Source of the DNA: Nitrospira sp.
GTDB taxonomy: Bacteria; Nitrospirota; Nitrospiria; Nitrospirales; Nitrospiraceae
NCBI GenBank assembly: GCA_024998685.1
Contig: JACOEH010000004.1
Coordinates: 62,001-126,000 of the forward strand
Direction: 5' to 3'
DNA: 64,000 bases
Of this stretch, positions 51,160-62,485 are shown in pieces. Positions within the stretch are counted from its first letter, which is position 1; every line of letters begins with the position of its first letter. A program made the position numbers and the translations under genes. Under the pieces are notes generated by a model, which did no database searches, was not told the DNA's origin, and was given only the letters and a program-made list of their open reading frames with translations.

Positions 51160-51408
51160 CGAAGCCTCCTATCATTTGTCATATATGCCTGTTATGACTC
51201 TGCACCATATCCGGAATACACCACACACTAGGATTATCCGAAGGCGGCCGCCATCTAGGAAGAACCCTAGTTATAGGTAGGAGGTTGTACCGTGCCGGGG
51301 CGACAGCGTAAAATATCCTCACTCTCGTACACTTGAACTACCTCGGATCTGTTTGCCGGCTCCAAAGCGGAACGGCCCGCAAGGGTCGCACTCAACAGGA
51401 GCCTGTTT
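51160..51408. other. kinase promoter region
   Basis: This 250-bp region holds the element at 51255-51270 and a stretch that resembles 54369-54460 (shared CTAGGAAGAACCC, TTGTA, GCGA-A-CGTAAAAT), and GGATCTGTTTGCCGG at 51345 that recurs at 59348. No gene is seen. Confidence 0.5.
51255..51270. promoter_or_regulatory. CTAGGAAGAACCCTAG element upstream of kinase
   Basis: Variant of the 39595-39610 palindrome with two changes in the left arm. It stands 150 bp before the kinase start and at the same place as the 54369 copy relative to the next kinase. Confidence 0.5.
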
Positions 51409-54196
51409 ATGGACAACCTTCCCGCACGCGGGTCGAATACGTCTTCAATCAAACATTCGAGCAAGCCCACGAGCCGTCTATTGGACATCCTCACCGGTTG
51501 CGGCGCGTGGGAATGGGATGGGAATGGGACATCGTCAGTGGGGCGGTCCAATGGTTCGGCATGCATGAGCGGTCGGCCGGCTCATGGCATGGGCGGAACC
51601 ACGACCACATCCGACCCTTGACGGACATGCTGCATCCGGATGACCGCGCGCGGGTATGGCAGAAGCTGAACCGTAGTATGGCACGGTGCGACATACCCTA
51701 TGCCGATGAATATCGAGTCATGCATCCCGACGGCAGCGTGCGATGGATCAGCGGCACAGGGCGGTTCTACTATGATGACGCCGGACAACCCGTCCGTATG
51801 ACCGGCGTCGTGCAAGACATTACCGAGCGCAAGCAGACACAGGAGGCGCTGCGAGTCAGTGAGGAACGGTTCGCGAAAGCCTTTCGCACGAGCCCTCATC
51901 CGATCGGCATCACGGAAGCGGCGACGGGCCGTTGTCTGGAAGTGAACGACGTCTGCTTGCAACTCTTCGGTTTTCGACGAGAGGAAGTGATTGGAAACAC
52001 CACGTTGATGCTGGGTATCTGGCCGAATGAAGAGGATCGGGCACGGCTCGTCGAACAGTTGCAAGCCGGTCGGCCGGTTCACAATCTTGAATTGAGCTTC
52101 AAGACCAAGATGGGCGACGTCCGCCATATTCTCGTGTCTTCCGATGTGGCGGAGCTCAACGGAACGCTCTGCCTGGTCACTGTCGGCAACGACATCACGG
52201 AACGCAAGGTGGCTGAAGAAAAACTGCATGAGAGCGAAGAACGGCTGCGGTTGGCGCAATCCGCCGCGAACATCGGGACATTTGATTGGGACATTGCGGC
52301 TCACACCGTCGTGTGGTCGCCGGAGACCGAACGAATCTGGGGTCTTTCCGTCGGACAGTTCGGAGGAACCTACGAACATTGGCGGCGGCAGGTTCATCCC
52401 GATGATGCGGCTGAGGTGGAGCGAATCGTTCGTCTTTCGTTGGAGAATCCGGACATTCCCTACGCGTACGAGCACCGCATCATTCGACCCGACGGAACCG
52501 TTCGCTGGATTCATGCGAATACGACGACGCGACGCGACACAGCCGGTCGGCCGATCCGCATGGTCGGCGTGAATTTCGACATCACCGCACGTAAGCAGGC
52601 GGAAGCGAAGCTACGCGACAGCGAGGCCAGGTTCCGCAATGTGTTCGAGCATGCGGGGATCGGAATCGCCATCGCCAACCTTTACGGCGGCTCTGTACAG
52701 TGTAATCCGGCCTACTGCGCGATGCTGGGTTATTCGGAAGACGAGCTTCGAAATCTCGATTTCTCCCAGGTGGTGCATCCTGAGGATCGTGACGTCAATC
52801 AAACGGAGATCAAACGGCTTCTGACCGAGGAACTGCCGTATTTCGAAATCGAGAACCGGTATGTGCATAAGAATGGGGAGCCGGTCTGGGTCCATAAGTT
52901 TGTTTCGCTTCTCAGAGACCATGAGAGGCACCCGAAATGTTTGGTCGCCTTGGTCACGGACATCACCGAACGGCGCAAAGCCGAGGAAGCGTTGCATCAG
53001 GCAAAGGAGCATCTGCAGCGTTGGACCACGGAATTGGAAGAAGCCGTAAACGAGAAGACTGCGGAACTCGTGCAATCGCAGGAACGCCTGCGGGCGCTCG
53101 CCAGCGAGTTGAGCCTGGCCGAGCAGCGCGAGCGCAAACGTCTCGCGACCGCACTGCACGACCATCTGCAACAAATGCTCGTATGCGGCAAGATGGCGAT
53201 CGGAGAGGTACAGCGAGTCGCCGCAGGCGATCCTGCTTGTGGACCTCTGCTGGAACGTGTGGACGACATGTTGTCCGACGCGTTGACCTATAGCCGCACC
53301 CTCGTGGCAGAACTCAGTCCTCCCGTGTTGCAAGACCATGGGTTGGGCGCCGGCCTGATATGGCTCGGCGAGTATATTATGAGGAGACATGGCCAGACCG
53401 TGACCGTTCTTGTCCCTGAAAACCATGAACTCAAACTACCGGAAGCACACCGCGTCTTGCTCTTTCAATCCGTCCGGGAACTTCTCATCAATGCCTCCAA
53501 GCATGCCGGGACTGGAAAGGCCGCCGTCCGACTGGAAAGGCGCGATGGGAATCTGTACGTGACGGTGAGTGATGAAGGCAAAGGATTCGATCTGACTGCC
53601 GGTAGGCTTGCGACTGCGGGAATTCCTAGTGGCGGGATTCCTCGAAATTTGAATTATATAGCATACATGAGCGAATGCGGGCATTGGGTGGATCATTTGT
53701 CATCCAATCAGCCCCGGGCCGTGGAACCACTGCCACGTTGATCTTGCCCGTAGCAAGCCATATCGTCGAGGAGCAGCGCGATGCTCAACAAAAAGGACGG
53801 TCCATGGTGCAAGTGTTGCTGGTAGATGATCACGCAATGGTTCGACAGGGACTTCGTTCCGTGTTGGATGCCTACGACGATCTCCATGTCGTCGCCGAAG
53901 CTCGGGATGGCGCGGAGGCGGTACAGCTGGTCGGGCAGTACCATCCGCGCGTGGTGGTGATGGACATCAATATGCCGAGAATGAACGGGATCGATGCCAC
54001 GACACACATCAAGCATCGATGGCCGGAGACGACCGTCATCGGGATCTCGGTCAATGCCGGTGACGATAACAGCGATGCGATGAAGCGGGCCGGTGCCGCC
54101 ACGGTCCTTCCTAAAGATACGGCGGTCGATCAGCTGCATGATGCGATCGTCCAGGAGGTCGGCCTATCCGACGACGAATTCGCCCCGCCCCACTAA
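51409..54196 (+). pseudogene. PAS/HisKA_3 hybrid kinase with fused receiver, disrupted by two frameshifts
   Basis: The native start (51409, AGGAG 7 nt upstream, peptide DNLPARGSNTSSIKH) leads into the wrong frame at 51509-51530, where GGGAATGGGAT is duplicated in tandem (11 bp) relative to the intact paralog at 59402. The main frame (to 53741) holds three to four PAS domains, the HisKA_3 box ERKRLATALHDHLQQ and the N box SVRELLINASKHAG. At 53639/53640 one base is missing (ATTTCC in paralogs, ATTCC here), so the G2 box is lost; in the repaired frame SSKFELYSIHERMRALGG continues to a receiver (VQVLLVDDHAMVRQGLR, VVVMDINMPRMNG) ending at 54196. The receiver could be made alone from an ATG at 53804. 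Confidence 0.85.
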
Positions 54197-54368: not shown

Positions 54369-54383
54369 CTAGGAAGAACCCAG
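54369..54383. promoter_or_regulatory. CTAGGAAGAACCCAG element upstream of kinase
   Basis: Third copy of the element, lacking one T in the right arm, about 140 bp before the start of the next kinase gene. Confidence 0.45.
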
Positions 54384-54523: not shown

Positions 54524-57500
54524 ATGGAAGACTTTCCTCGCAACACCACCGATGACGCTTCGGCCCAGCCGCCGTTCACGGACTTCGGTGCATGGGATTG
54601 GGACATCATCAGTGGAGATGTGCAGTGGTTCGGCGCCCATGAGCGGTTGATCGGCATGCGGACGAAAAGCCTCAGCGGCAAAGTCGAAGCGTTTTCCCAT
54701 GTACTCCATCCGGATGACCGAGCGCGTGTCTGGAAAAAAGTGCTCGGCGCGATGGCTCGGCGGGAGACGCAGTATTCAGACCAATTTAGGTTTCTGTACT
54801 CGAACGGCACGGTGCGATGGGTGAGCGGCACCGGGCGGTTCTACTATGACGACGGCGGCCGACCGGTGCGCATGGCCGGCGTCGTGCAGGACGTCACCGT
54901 CGTCAAGCGCCGGGAGCAAGCCTTGCGCGACAGCGAAGAACGTTTCGCCAGCGCATTCCGCTCAAGCCCTCATCCGATCGGTATCACGGAGGCGGCGACG
55001 GGTCGTTGTCTAGAAGTGAACGATGCCTGTCTGCAGTTGTTCGGGTTTGATCGCGAAGAAGTGATCGGAAACACCACCTTGATGCTGGGCATCTGGCCGA
55101 AACAGGAGGATCGATCACGGCTCGTTGAACGGTTGAAAGCCGGTGAGCCGGTCCGCAATCTTGAATTAAGCTTCAGGACCAAGTCGGGCGACGTCCGCCA
55201 TATTCTTGTGTCTTCCGATTTGGTCGAGCTCAATGGCACGCTGTGTCTGATCACGGTCGGCAACGACATCACTGAACGCAAGCATGCGGAGCAAGCGTTG
55301 CGCGAGAACGAGGCTTGGCAGAGCGGCCAGAAGGAAGCGTTCCAAGCCGTCATGAACGGCGCATCACTGGAAGACTCGCTCCGCCCTCTGGTCCGCACTG
55401 CCGTCCGGTATTTCGGGGGGGACGCACGGGCGGCCTTTTACCGTGTCCGTGATGACGGCGTGACACTCGGCCATGTCGTCGGCATGTCCGAGGCCTATGC
55501 GCGAAGCGTGGAGGGTTTCAAGATCGGGAAGGACTCATTGTCCTGTGGGTTAGCGATGTACCAGGTCGCGGCAGTCATCACGCCGGACGTTACACAGGAT
55601 CCGCGATGGCGGCCCTGGTTGTGGCTGGCGCAGGAGCATCGGTTCCGAGCCAGTTGGTCATTCCCCGTGCGCGCCACCGATGGGCCGGCTCTGGGCACCT
55701 TGGCGTTGTATTTCAATGAGCCTCGTCAGCCGACAGTGCGCGATCTCGAACTGGTTGATGTGCTCACCCACGCCGCCACGATCATTATCTCCCGTCATCA
55801 GGAGTCCTCCGAGCGGGCTCGAGTAGAGCACATCTTACGCGAAAGTGAAGCACGGTTCCGCACGATGGCGGAGGCGGTGCCGAGTTTCCTCTTTGAAACC
55901 GACGCGGCCGGCTGGACCACCTGGACCAGCCAGGATTGGTGCCGGTTTACCGGACAGACACCGGAGCAAGTGGCGGGGCACGGCTGGGCCGAGGCATTAC
56001 ATCCTGAAGACCGGGCGCCCAATCTCGACCGGTGGCTCCATTGTGTGGAGAAGGGCATGCCTTTCGAGTCTCAGCAACGGGTGCGCCGAACGGACGGCAC
56101 CTATGCTTGGGTCATCGCGAAGGCCCTGCCCGTGCGCGACGATCCAGGTACGATTCGCCGCTGGGTCGGATCGGTGACGGATGTGGATGCTTTTGTGCGG
56201 GCCGAGGAGCAATTGCGGGAAAACCATCGGTTCATCAGCGAAATGGCGTCCGTGCTTCCCGGTGTGCTGTACATCTTCGATCTCCAAGAACAGCGGAATG
56301 TCTACGTGAATCGACACGCCGGGGTCGTATTGGGCTACAGCCCGGAGGAAGTCCATGCCTTGGGGGCGGACTTCATTCCGACCGTCGTACATCCCGACGA
56401 CGCCATACGATTGCTCCGGCATTTCGAAGGCTTTCAGGAATTGGAGGAGGGGGTCTCCGCTCAGGTGGAGTATCGCTTCCGACATCGCGACGGATCGTAT
56501 CGATGGTTTCTCAGTCGGGATATCGTGTGGCAACGGAACGCCGAAGGGCAGGTGCGGCAAATACTGGGGATCGCGACGGATATCACCGAGCGGAAGCAGG
56601 TGGAAAATCAGCTCCGCGAGAGTGAAGAGCGACTGCGATTGGCCTTGGACGGTGCGGACCTCGGCTCTTGGGACGTCGATTGGCTCACGGGGACGACGGT
56701 GTGGGACCGGCGACATGCCGCCATGCAGGGCTACAAGCCGCAAACCGGACCGGTGTCGCTGGAGCGTTGGCGCGAGCGGATGCATCCGGATGATCGCGGC
56801 CGTCACACGGCCGCGATCGAATGGGCGAAGCGCGAGCGGGGGTTATTTGCGCAAGAACATCGCATCTGCCGAGCCGATACCGGTGAATTGCGATGGCTCT
56901 CGCTCCACGGACGGTTCTCGTATAACGATGCCGGAGAGCCTGTTCGGTTCAGCGGCGTGTCGCTCGATGTCACCGAGCGCAAACTGCACGAGCAGCGACA
57001 GGAATTTATCTTGAAATTGGGGGATGCCTTGCGCCCGCTGTCCGATCCATTGGAGATTCAACGGGCGGCGATGCGCATCGTCGGCGAGACGTTGCAAGCC
57101 GACCGCGTGTTGTATGCCGATATGACGCCGGACGGCGAAACGTGGATTGTACGGGATAATTACACGAGCGGACGGGTGCCGAAACTCGTCGGCAGTTTTC
57201 CCACCGCGAATTTCGACGCGATGGTCGAAACATTAAAGCGCGGAGAAGTGGTCGTCATCCCCGATGTGAATGCGGCCACGGAGTTACGAGAAGCGGATAA
57301 ACGGGGGTTCGCCGGCCTACATGCCCGGTCCGCCATCGTCATTCCCCTCGTCAAAGGCGGCCGCTGGCTATCCAATCTCGGCGTTCACCACGCCGAACCA
57401 CGTCAGTGGAACATGGAAGAAATCACGCTCTTACAGGAAACGGCGGAAAGAACCTGGGCGGCGGTCGAACGCACCCGCGCCGAGGAAGCGTTGCGCGAAG

Positions 57501-58720
57501 CCCATCAGCGCCTTCAGCGTTGGAACGTCGAGCTGGAACAGACAGTCAACATGAAAACCGCCGAGTTGATGCAATCACAAACGCGCTTGCGGGCACTCGC
57601 CGGCGAGTTGAGTCTGGCCGAGCAACGTGAACGCAAACGTCTCGCCACCGAACTGCACGATCACCTGCAGCAGATGCTGGTCTATGGGAAGATGACGATC
57701 GGGCAGGGGAAACGCCGGATTGCCGACGTGCCGGCTGCGGCGGAGATGATGACGAAGGTGGATGAGGTCCTCTCGGAGGCGTTGACCTATAGCCGTACGC
57801 TCGTCGCGGAACTCAGTCCACCCGTATTGCATGATTACGGGTTGGCCGCCGGCTTCAAATGGTTGGGAGAGCATCTCAGGAAATACAATCTGACCGTCAC
57901 GGTTCTTGTCCCCGAACATTGCGAACCTGACTTACCGGAGGCTCACCGCGTCTTGCTCTTTCAATCCGTCCGCGAACTCCTTATCAATGCCTCCAAACAT
58001 GCCGGGACGGACAAGGCCACCGTCCTCATGCAACAGCGCGATGACAGTCTGCGCGTGACAGTGAGTGATGAAGGCAAAGGCTTCGATCTTGCTGCTGCTG
58101 AAGGAACTCCTGGCGGCGAGATCTCTTCGAAGTTCGGACTGTTCAGCATTCGGGAGCGCATGCGGGCATTGGGCGGTTCTTTCGACATCCAGTCGGCGCC
58201 CGGACGGGGAACGACAGCGATGCTTGTCTTGCCCTTGGCAAGGAGCGCTGAGCCGAAGGTGGTGAGCCCTGCGTTAGGCGGAACGGAGCAGTCTATTCAC
58301 CCGGCATCCGGCCCCCCACAATCGGCGCCTCCGAAGAACGCCGTGACTCGCGTTCTGCTCGTCGATGACCATACCATGGTACGGCAAGGCCTCCGTTCCG
58401 TATTGGATGCCTATGATGATATTCAGGTGGTCGGAGAGGCCCGGGATGGGGAGGAAGCCGTGCAACTGGTGAAGGAACTCCGACCGCGCGTGGTGGTGAT
58501 GGACATCAATATGCCGAGAATGAACGGAGTTGAGGCTACGAGGCACATCAAGTCTCATTGGCCCGAGACCCTCGTGATTGGAATTTCAGTCAATGCGGGA
58601 GATGACAATGGCATCGCGATGAAGCGAGTCGGCGCGGCGGTGTTGCTGACCAAGGAGGCCGCCGTCGATGACCTGTACCGGACAATTCAAGACACGCTGA
58701 ATGCGGAAGCAAACGTGTGA
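54524..58720 (+). CDS. large PAS/GAF hybrid histidine kinase with C-terminal receiver
   Basis: From the ATG at 54524 (AGGA 7 nt upstream; aligned with the starts of the paralogs) the protein has 1398 residues and no transmembrane segment, so it is a cytoplasmic sensor. Order: PAS (FGAWDWDIISGDVQWFG), PAS (RSSPHPIGITEAATGRCLEV), GAF (NGASLEDSLRPLVRTAVRYF), PAS (SFLFETDAAGWTTWTSQDW), PAS (GVLYIFDLQEQRNVYVNRH), PAS (GADLGSWDVDWLTGTTVWD), GAF (LSDPLEIQRAAMRIVGE), coiled coil, HisKA_3 (RKRLATELHDHLQQML), HATPase (RELLINASKHAG; SDEGKGFDLAA; FGLFSIRERMRALGG) and a receiver (VLLVDDHTMVRQGLRSVLD; VMDINMPRMNG, phospho-acceptor Asp). The receiver is of the NarL type but no DNA-binding domain follows. 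It is the intact member of the disrupted tandem family. Confidence 0.92.
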   Translation: MEDFPRNTTDDASAQPPFTDFGAWDWDIISGDVQWFGAHERLIGMRTKSLSGKVEAFSHVLHPDDRARVWKKVLGAMARRETQYSDQFRFLYSNGTVRWVSGTGRFYYDDGGRPVRMAGVVQDVTVVKRREQALRDSEERFASAFRSSPHPIGITEAATGRCLEVNDACLQLFGFDREEVIGNTTLMLGIWPKQEDRSRLVERLKAGEPVRNLELSFRTKSGDVRHILVSSDLVELNGTLCLITVGNDITERKHAEQALRENEAWQSGQKEAFQAVMNGASLEDSLRPLVRTAVRYFGGDARAAFYRVRDDGVTLGHVVGMSEAYARSVEGFKIGKDSLSCGLAMYQVAAVITPDVTQDPRWRPWLWLAQEHRFRASWSFPVRATDGPALGTLALYFNEPRQPTVRDLELVDVLTHAATIIISRHQESSERARVEHILRESEARFRTMAEAVPSFLFETDAAGWTTWTSQDWCRFTGQTPEQVAGHGWAEALHPEDRAPNLDRWLHCVEKGMPFESQQRVRRTDGTYAWVIAKALPVRDDPGTIRRWVGSVTDVDAFVRAEEQLRENHRFISEMASVLPGVLYIFDLQEQRNVYVNRHAGVVLGYSPEEVHALGADFIPTVVHPDDAIRLLRHFEGFQELEEGVSAQVEYRFRHRDGSYRWFLSRDIVWQRNAEGQVRQILGIATDITERKQVENQLRESEERLRLALDGADLGSWDVDWLTGTTVWDRRHAAMQGYKPQTGPVSLERWRERMHPDDRGRHTAAIEWAKRERGLFAQEHRICRADTGELRWLSLHGRFSYNDAGEPVRFSGVSLDVTERKLHEQRQEFILKLGDALRPLSDPLEIQRAAMRIVGETLQADRVLYADMTPDGETWIVRDNYTSGRVPKLVGSFPTANFDAMVETLKRGEVVVIPDVNAATELREADKRGFAGLHARSAIVIPLVKGGRWLSNLGVHHAEPRQWNMEEITLLQETAERTWAAVERTRAEEALREAHQRLQRWNVELEQTVNMKTAELMQSQTRLRALAGELSLAEQRERKRLATELHDHLQQMLVYGKMTIGQGKRRIADVPAAAEMMTKVDEVLSEALTYSRTLVAELSPPVLHDYGLAAGFKWLGEHLRKYNLTVTVLVPEHCEPDLPEAHRVLLFQSVRELLINASKHAGTDKATVLMQQRDDSLRVTVSDEGKGFDLAAAEGTPGGEISSKFGLFSIRERMRALGGSFDIQSAPGRGTTAMLVLPLARSAEPKVVSPALGGTEQSIHPASGPPQSAPPKNAVTRVLLVDDHTMVRQGLRSVLDAYDDIQVVGEARDGEEAVQLVKELRPRVVVMDINMPRMNGVEATRHIKSHWPETLVIGISVNAGDDNGIAMKRVGAAVLLTKEAAVDDLYRTIQDTLNAEANV

Positions 58721-59401: not shown

Positions 59402-62400
59402 ATGGATCATGTCCTCGCACGCGGGTCGAATCCATCTTCAATCAAACACACGAGCCGTCTATTAGAAATCCTCACCGGTTACGGTGCATGGGAATGGGAC
59501 ATCGTCAGTGGGGAGGTCCAATGGTTCGGCATGCATGAGCGGTCGGCCGGCTCAGGGGATGGGCGGGACAACGACCACATCCAATCCTTCACGGACATGC
59601 TGCATCCGGATGACCGCGTGCGCGTGTGGCAGAAGTTGAACCGTAGTATGGCACGGCGCGACATACCCTATGTCGATGAATATCGAGTCATGCATCCCGA
59701 CGGCAGCGTGCGATGGATCAGCGGGACAGGGCGGTTCTACTATGATGACACCGGACAACCCGTCCGTATGACCGGCGTCGTGCAAGACATTACCGAGCGC
59801 AAGCAGGCCGAAGCAAAACTGCAGGAGGATGAGGAGCGGTTGAGTCTGGCATTGTCTGCTGCGAATATCGGGTCCTTCGATTGGGACATTCCGGCCCAAG
59901 TAATGGTTTGGTCGCCGGAGACGAAACGAATCTGGGGTCTTTCGGCCGGTGGTTTCGGTGGAACCTATGAGCACTGGCGGCGACAGATTCATCCGGACGA
60001 TGTAGCTGAGGTCGACCGAATCGTTCGCTTTTCGTTGGAGAATCGCGACATTGCCTGCAAGTACGAGCACCGCATTATTCGACCCGATGGAATGGTTCGC
60101 TGGATTCATGTGAATGCGACGATGCAGCGCGACACAGCGGGCCGATCGATTCGCATGGTCGGAGTGAATTTCGACATCACCGCCCGTAAGCAGGCGGAAG
60201 CGAAGCTGCGCGAAAGCGAAGCCAGGTTTCGTAATGTGTTCGAGTATGCAGGAACGGGGATCGCCATCGGGAACCTCGATGGAAACATCGTGCAATGCAA
60301 TCCGGCTTTTTGCGGGATGTTGGGCTATACCGAAGACGAACTCCGGCATGTTCACTTTTCGGAGTTGGTCCATGTGGAGAATCGCGACGCCGATCTCGCG
60401 GAGATCGAACGGCTCCGCACGGAGGAACTGCCCTATTTCGAAATCGAGAACCGCTACATGCACAAGAACGGCGAGCCGGTCTGGGTCCGCAAGTTTGTCT
60501 CGCTCCTGCGCGATGATGAAGGGCGACCGAAGTTCTTTGTCGCCTTGGTCACGGACATCACCGAACGTAAAAAGGCGGACAGAGCCCTGCGTGAGAGTGA
60601 ACTGAGATTTCGAACGATGGCGGAGACCGTGCCGAGTATGTTGTTTGAAACCGACGCGGCCGGCTTGAATACCTGGACGAGCGAAGACTGGTGCCGGTTC
60701 ACCGGCCAGACGCCGGAACAGGTGGCCGGGCATGGTTGGGCCGAAGCCCTGCATCCCGACGACCGGGAGGTCAATCTCAGTCAATGGCGCTGCTGCCTGG
60801 AGACCGGCCGGACCTTCGAGTCGAAGCAGCGTCTGCGCCGTACCGACGGAAGTTACACCTGGGTCATTGCGCAGGCGCTGCCTGTGCGGGACGAGGAAGG
60901 GACTGTCCGCCGTTGGGTCGGGTCGGTGACGAACATTGATGCCATCATGCGGGCGGAGGAAGAACAGGCCAGACTCGCGGCGATTGTCGAAAATACCAGC
61001 GACGCCATTATCGGCAAAGATTTGCACGGCACCATCACGAGTTGGAACAGAGCCGCAGAAACTCTGCTCGGCTACAGAGCAGCCGAAGTCATCGGTCGAC
61101 CGGTGACCCTGTTCTTTCCGCCCGATCGGTTGGAGGAAGAGTCCGCGATCCTCGACCGCCTACGGAAGTGTGAGTCGATTCGGCAATATGAGACCGTGCG
61201 GCGTTGCAAGGACGGCCGTGATATTTCGGTGTCGTTGACCATCTCGCTGGTCCGAGATAAGCAGGGCCGTATCATAGGCGCGTCCAAAATCATGCGCGAT
61301 ATCACCGAGAGCAAACAGGCGGAAGCGAAGCTGCGTGAGAGCGAGGCGCGGTTCCGGAATGTGTTTGAGCATGCGGGGACGGGGATCGTCATCGTCGATC
61401 TCGCTGGAAACTTCGTGCAATGCAATCCGGCCTACTGCGCCATGTTGGGCTATATCGAAGACGAACTCTTGCAGGTTCACTTTTCGGCATTGGTCCACGT
61501 GGAGGATCGCGACGCCAATCTTGAGGAGACCAAGCGGCTCCTCACGGGGGAATTACCCTATTTCGAAATTGAAAATCGGTACGTGCATAAGAACGGCGAG
61601 CCGGTTTGGGTCCGCAAGTTTATCTCGCTCCTGTGCGATGATGAGGGGAGACCGATGTATGGGCTTGCCCTGGTCACGGACATTACCGAACGGCGTAAGG
61701 CCGAGCAAGCGTTGCTTCAGGCTAAAGAGCATCTGCAACGCTGGGCCGTGGAACTGGAAAAGGCGGTGAATGAGAAGACGTCCGAATTGGTCCAATCGCA
61801 AACGCGCCTGCGATCTCTCGCCGGCGAGTTGAGTCTGGCCGAGCAGCGCGAGCGCAAACGTCTCGCCGGCGAACTGCACGATCATCTGCAACAACTGCTG
61901 GTGCTCGGCAAGCTGACTGTCGGGCAAGGCAAGCGGTCCTCCGGGGGGGCCGGATGTGAAATCGCGCTCAACCGGGTGGATGACATCTTATCGGAAGCGT
62001 TGACCTATAGCCGTACACTCGTCACTGAACTCAGCCCGCCGGTGTTGCGCGACCATGGCCTTGCCGCCGGGCTCACATGGCTCGGGGCGTACATGAAGAA
62101 GCATGAACAAACCGTGACGGTGAAGGTCCCGGAAGGGAAGGAAGTGCAATTGACGGAGGACCAAGTCATCTTGCTGTTTCAATCCGTGCGCGAGCTCTTG
62201 ATCAACTCCTCGAAATATGCAGGCACCGGCCATGCGACGGTCACCATGGAGCTGGTTGATGGGGATCTGCGCATCATTGTGAGTGATGACGGGGCAGGAT
62301 TCGATCGTGCCTCTCTTGCATCTGTGGCTGCCGGACCTCACTCTAGCGGCGGCATTTCCTCGAAGTTCGGACTGTTCAGCATCGAGGAACGCATGCTGTC

Positions 62401-62485
62401 GCTGGGAGGAAGGTTCGATCTCTATTCCACCCCAGGGCATGGGACGACGGCCACGCTCATACTACCGCTGAATAGTCAGTTATAA
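59402..62485 (+). CDS. multi-PAS histidine kinase (HisKA_3/HATPase), no receiver
   Basis: The 1027-residue protein starts 7 nt after GGAG. Six PAS domains: YGAWEWDIVSGEVQWFG (about 25), SAANIGSFDWDIPAQVMVW (about 145), FRNVFEYAGTGIAIGNLDG (about 275), SMLFETDAAGLNTWTSEDW, IVENTSDAIIGKDLHGTITS, and FRNVFEHAGTGIVIVDLAG. Then a coiled coil (LQRWAVELEKAVNEKTSELV), HisKA_3 (RKRLAGELHDHLQQLL), and HATPase with N box VRELLINSSKYAG, G1 VSDDGAGFD and G2 KFGLFSIEERMLSLGG. It ends without a receiver, unlike its neighbours. PAS 3 and PAS 6 are near-identical, an internal duplication. No membrane segment; soluble sensor. Confidence 0.93.
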   Translation: MDHVLARGSNPSSIKHTSRLLEILTGYGAWEWDIVSGEVQWFGMHERSAGSGDGRDNDHIQSFTDMLHPDDRVRVWQKLNRSMARRDIPYVDEYRVMHPDGSVRWISGTGRFYYDDTGQPVRMTGVVQDITERKQAEAKLQEDEERLSLALSAANIGSFDWDIPAQVMVWSPETKRIWGLSAGGFGGTYEHWRRQIHPDDVAEVDRIVRFSLENRDIACKYEHRIIRPDGMVRWIHVNATMQRDTAGRSIRMVGVNFDITARKQAEAKLRESEARFRNVFEYAGTGIAIGNLDGNIVQCNPAFCGMLGYTEDELRHVHFSELVHVENRDADLAEIERLRTEELPYFEIENRYMHKNGEPVWVRKFVSLLRDDEGRPKFFVALVTDITERKKADRALRESELRFRTMAETVPSMLFETDAAGLNTWTSEDWCRFTGQTPEQVAGHGWAEALHPDDREVNLSQWRCCLETGRTFESKQRLRRTDGSYTWVIAQALPVRDEEGTVRRWVGSVTNIDAIMRAEEEQARLAAIVENTSDAIIGKDLHGTITSWNRAAETLLGYRAAEVIGRPVTLFFPPDRLEEESAILDRLRKCESIRQYETVRRCKDGRDISVSLTISLVRDKQGRIIGASKIMRDITESKQAEAKLRESEARFRNVFEHAGTGIVIVDLAGNFVQCNPAYCAMLGYIEDELLQVHFSALVHVEDRDANLEETKRLLTGELPYFEIENRYVHKNGEPVWVRKFISLLCDDEGRPMYGLALVTDITERRKAEQALLQAKEHLQRWAVELEKAVNEKTSELVQSQTRLRSLAGELSLAEQRERKRLAGELHDHLQQLLVLGKLTVGQGKRSSGGAGCEIALNRVDDILSEALTYSRTLVTELSPPVLRDHGLAAGLTWLGAYMKKHEQTVTVKVPEGKEVQLTEDQVILLFQSVRELLINSSKYAGTGHATVTMELVDGDLRIIVSDDGAGFDRASLASVAAGPHSSGGISSKFGLFSIEERMLSLGGRFDLYSTPGHGTTATLILPLNSQL

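Follow-up and report, generated by a model that had tools for sequence, protein, structure and literature searches.

The window, the whole 64,000-nt stretch analysed here, comes from the forward strand of contig JACOEH010000004.1 (positions 62,001 to 126,000) of Nitrospira sp. assembly GCA_024998685.1. The source genome is a draft of 105 contigs and 4.83 Mb, in which the window lies on contig C6. By sequence, its closest relatives are Nitrospira metagenome-assembled genomes. The gene at 51409-54196 displays a PAS-HisKA_3-HATPase_c-receiver architecture and is the first of three adjacent paralogous sensor kinases on the plus strand, which begin at 51409, 54524, and 59402 and are mutually 72-88% alike. 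The features of this array are collected in Table 1. The sequence CTAGGAAGAACCC occurs exactly twice in the genome, at 51255-51267 and 54369-54381. Both copies lie about 150 bp 5' of a kinase start, that of the first and that of the second paralogue, and more similar sequence then follows. This duplicated upstream region may contain a shared control site.

Table 1. Features of the sensor-kinase array and of its disrupted first gene (window coordinates)
Feature	Coordinates	Strand	Basis
Native start with a 70-codon N-terminal fragment that ends at TGA 51619	51409..51621	+	AGGAG precedes ATG (anti-SD duplex, -6.6 kcal/mol)
Exact 11-bp tandem, TGGGAATGGGA x2, +11 shift	51508..51529	+	Tandem Repeats Finder; one copy in homologues
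Middle frame, open, with PAS repeats, HisKA_3, and a truncated HATPase_c; ATG 51513 as possible restart	51513..53741	+	ORF, Pfam
Alanine codon in the H-box, two positions 5' of the phospho-acceptor histidine	53151..53153	+	E in 28/29 distinct H-boxes
1-bp deletion, ATTCC for ATTTCC, just 5' of the G2 box	53636..53641	+	Alignment with G023 and L037
GAA (E) in place of the G2-box glycine codon, read in the relatives' frame	53651..53653	+	G in 30/32 tallied
Downstream frame: end of ATPase domain and complete receiver	53675..54196	+	ORF list; Pfam match to Response_reg (92 bits) over profile positions 1-110 of 111
Receiver frame with its own start, 130 aa	53804..54196	+	AAGGA 6 nt before ATG; anti-SD duplex -8.7 kcal/mol
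Neighbouring hybrid kinase paralogue, intact (PAS/GAF-HisKA_3-HATPase_c-receiver)	54524..58720	+	ORF list, Pfam
Neighbouring kinase paralogue, intact, without receiver	59402..62485	+	ORF list, Pfam

Two close relatives carry an orthologue of the first gene. In G023, a genome assembled as a single 4.69 Mb contig, the orthologue lies at C1:487566-490052, with about 91-92% DNA identity and a frame of 828 codons. In Nitrospira sp. GZL_ISSM_2_bin.53 (L037, JAICUC010000021.1), DNA identity is about 90% and the frame spans 977 codons. G023 lacks one PAS domain that is common to the window gene and GZL_ISSM_2_bin.53. Both orthologues resemble the window gene in their position within the array, in their domain types, and in overall DNA identity (approximately 90-92%). 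Unlike it, they retain an ELHD H-box, the G2 glycine, and an uninterrupted reading frame that stays open across both lesion sites described below.

The arrays of these relatives display further peculiarities. In G023, the first and second paralogues have nearly identical receivers (L030 7719 and 11947), while the second-paralogue receiver of the window is far more distant. This pattern is suggestive of gene conversion or an exchange of domains among neighbouring paralogues in G023. In GZL_ISSM_2_bin.53 (L037 3789-6749), the second and third kinases are apparently fused into a 986-codon frame with parts of both, likely a recombination product of the paralogues.

At the 5' end of the window gene, Tandem Repeats Finder reports a repeat at 51508-51529 with a period of 11, 2.0 copies, and 100% matches. 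The original prediction had placed this tandem at 51509-51530. The duplication is real, although that register lies one base off and leaves one mismatch between the copies (GGGAATGGGAT/GGGAATGGGAC). A single copy of the 11-mer is found in all seven aligned homologues (G023, L037, G001, G010, G030, G017, and paralogue 59402), including the paralogue for which it had been claimed, where it sits at 59490. All further loci compared lack the tandem. The native start is indeed thrown out of frame, and reading from ATG 51409 ends at the TGA at 51619. The duplication also contains ATG 51513, from which reading proceeds in the open frame of the gene's middle part. This codon has a weak ribosome-binding site (-3.3 versus -6.6 kcal/mol at the native start), and initiation there retains the first PAS domain almost entire (M-G-W-E-W-D-I-V). 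An N-terminally shortened protein could thus be translated from this codon as far as the deletion. Since it creates an in-frame ATG, the duplication alone need not be fatal. Reversible phase variation through the tandem, possible in principle for this first lesion, was considered and rejected: there are only two copies, copy number varies in no relative, and the deletion would persist anyway. Other length differences of the window copy keep the frame (+12 bp near 51465 and +3 bp near 53378), and a 9-bp stretch near 53603 is present in the window and L037 and missing from G023.

The second lesion is the loss of one T from a T3 run near 53638, where the window reads GGGATTCC and both close relatives read ATTTCC. 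In wider context, the window has GGGATTCCTCG versus GGAATTTCCTCG in L037 and G023. Comparison with these two relatives confirms the change from ATTTCC to ATTCC at 53639/53640, as originally described. Upstream of it, the middle of the gene is free of stops, also as described, with a frame open from 51312 to 53741. Within this frame, HisKA_3 (Pfam PF07730) is complete (33.3 bits, 68 of 68 positions) and keeps the phospho-acceptor histidine. The HATPase_c match covers profile positions 4-50 of 111 only, compared with 4-110 in a relative. The frame is lost before the G2 box, and no single protein unites the N, G1, and G2 boxes in one complete HATPase_c domain. Translation stops at 53739-53741 with the receiver in another frame, which bears out the claim that the ATP-binding domain has been split from the receiver.

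A histidine kinase that lacks its G2 box is not expected to bind ATP or to autophosphorylate. Because no complete ATP-binding domain is left, the kinase is most likely dead. The deletion, and not the duplication, is the disabling lesion. The view that both lesions killed the gene holds for the deletion; given ATG 51513, the duplication alone need not have done so. The window copy carries two additional changes that are independent of the indels: ELHD has become ALHD in the H-box, and the G2-box glycine has been replaced. Both affect near-invariant kinase positions and occur in the window copy only.

As expected of a pseudogene, the frame-breaking lesions have no counterpart in the orthologues. 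They are private to the window genome, and the hybrid gene is intact in its close relatives. A three-way comparison assigned to the window branch 33 codon changes that alter the amino acid and 32 that are silent, against 62 and 94, respectively, on the two other branches together. The window branch is thus not significantly enriched in amino-acid changes (Fisher p = 0.14), and substitution rates do not demonstrate a loss of constraint. With a neutral ratio of 2.68, the unconstrained share of the window branch is estimated at 0.18 (bootstrap -0.06 to 0.52). At that share, fewer than one new stop is expected, and the open middle frame is therefore what a recent loss predicts. Private lesions, a low unconstrained share, and an open middle frame agree with the earlier view that the damage is recent. 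The loss of the kinase is very probably real, recent, and an instance of ordinary decay within an expanded family.

The receiver itself appears undamaged. Its phosphorylation-site residues are complete and comprise DD, VVMD, GIS, and LPKD (acidic pocket, phospho-Asp, Ser/Thr, and Lys), such that a complete receiver domain with its phosphorylation site is encoded. Directly 5' of ATG 53804 lies AAAAAGGACGGTCC, whose anti-SD duplex (-8.7 kcal/mol) ranks among the strongest ~5% of window ATGs. The same ribosome-binding site is present in the fused genes of G023 and GZL_ISSM_2_bin.53. It also occurs in G010, G030, G017, and WA-bin32, which share with the window the kinase and receiver subfamily and the receiver ATG, whereas their receiver is a separate gene and their kinase has a complete ATP-binding domain followed by its own stop. 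Among more distant fused paralogues, some have an AAAGG-ATG site (for example, G027:C99 and G010:C12) and others do not (for example, paralogue 54524).

G027 harbors an orphan receiver (C106, L073) that resembles the window receiver (85% protein identity) and is convergent with an SDR gene that also flanks the window array. Unlike the window receiver, it is a stand-alone gene of 130 aa, and 4.5 kb of sequence there hold no remnant of a kinase. At this locus (L073 525-1436 and 1944-2336), the kinase array is missing and the receiver alone is left. The neighbouring SDR reading frame continues into sequence that is unrelated, a sign of rearrangement at this place.

A tree of the receivers nests the fused group (window, G023, and GZL_ISSM_2_bin.53; support 98/96) among separate receivers, although several forks are weak. 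Because of this nesting, the fusion of receiver and kinase looks secondary here. A transcript start near 53780 had been proposed to feed the receiver; a search of the plus strand found no sigma-70-type promoter there, and Nitrospira promoters need not match the sigma-70 consensus. With no promoter-like site at that position, the receiver would have to be translated from the transcript of the gene itself, and the long untranslated mRNA 5' of the receiver could lower its expression. A free receiver made from ATG 53804 without a new promoter is nonetheless plausible, since the strong SD-ATG is conserved, the receiver is separate or alone in relatives, and the fusion is apparently secondary. The earlier suggestion that the receiver may still be made alone is strengthened by the conserved ribosome-binding site and by the relatives with a separate receiver.

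Taken together, this is very probably a PAS-HisKA_3 hybrid kinase gene that has recently lost its kinase function and from which a free receiver can probably still be made at ATG 53804. The 11-bp tandem duplication puts the native start out of frame, and the deletion in the T3 run truncates the ATP-binding domain 5' of the G2 box and detaches the receiver. Ribosomes would still initiate at ATG 53804 and yield a free receiver. If phosphorylated at all, this receiver would presumably obtain its phosphate from one of the intact paralogues, for example the kinase at 59402, which has no receiver of its own.

Whether the organism's gene is in fact intact, and the lesions are errors of sequencing or assembly, deserves consideration, since the genome is a draft in 105 contigs. 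One lesion lies in a short homopolymer (T3) and the other in a short repeat, and an array of paralogues 72-88% alike eases misassembly. However, the 22-bp tandem is short enough to be spanned by any read, and the lesions are accompanied by two motif-breaking substitutions. A survey of the same contig against G023, which covered this one contig with about 9,000 aligned residues in 22 to 26 genes, found this to be the only long gene that is internally frame-broken. Two other multi-frame flags in the survey proved to be the 5' extension of an ORF and an ORF that covers sequence with no evident coding role. Because no other compared long gene of the contig is broken internally, a generally poor assembly is unlikely and was rejected, and an artefact at this gene is quite unlikely.

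An alternative in which the lesions are real is that the deletion restores a two-gene layout in which the PAS-HisKA_3 protein, now shortened, and the free receiver are both in use, comparable to the case of Yersinia pestis rcsD described below. The conserved receiver start and the separate receivers of relatives fit such a functional split, as do the long open middle frame, the new ATG 51513, and a ratio of amino-acid-changing to silent changes that is not significantly raised. Yet the kinases of relatives with separate genes keep their entire ATP-binding domain, whereas the window gene has lost its G2 box and shows changes at both the G2 glycine and the H-box glutamate, which makes this an unlikely reading. 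The hybrid protein might also be rebuilt by programmed -1 frameshifting at A-AAT-TTG (53645-53651). Just after the deletion, this heptamer fits the X-XXY-YYZ form when read in the zero frame that the middle ORF uses, and a -1 slip on it leads into the receiver frame. It nevertheless corresponds to the relatives' Lys-Phe codons (AAA TTT G) in shifted phase. The predicted fold of the next 80 nt does not surpass that of shuffled sequences (z = -1.0), the main stem starts more than 20 nt downstream, and neither the upstream duplication nor the glycine-to-glutamate change would be undone. With no 3' structure beyond chance and ancestral codons that explain the heptamer, this candidate was rejected as extremely improbable.

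Recent loss of the kinase with a receiver that can still be made thus remains the preferred reading. Literature searches returned nothing relevant on a Nitrospira case or on internal starts in hybrid kinases. A parallel is rcsD of Yersinia pestis, a frameshifted phosphorelay gene from which a functional HPt fragment is still made at an internal start (PMC10191623). Both cases combine a frameshifted phosphorelay gene with a C-terminal domain from an internal start. They differ in that the Yersinia domain is an HPt and not a receiver, and in that its production is known there by experiment and is inferred here.

By itself, this gene break alters no general view. A broader and rather doubtful proposal is that it marks a recent change in which a self-contained hybrid kinase gave way to a free receiver driven by neighbouring paralogous kinases, a step that would be completed in G027; the array would then show hybrid kinases repeatedly assembled and dismantled around a receiver with its own start. 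The locus provides a clean example of recent decay in the expanded Nitrospira sensor-kinase family. Together with relatives in which the receiver is fused, separate, or alone, it forms a small natural series on how hybrid kinases form and break.
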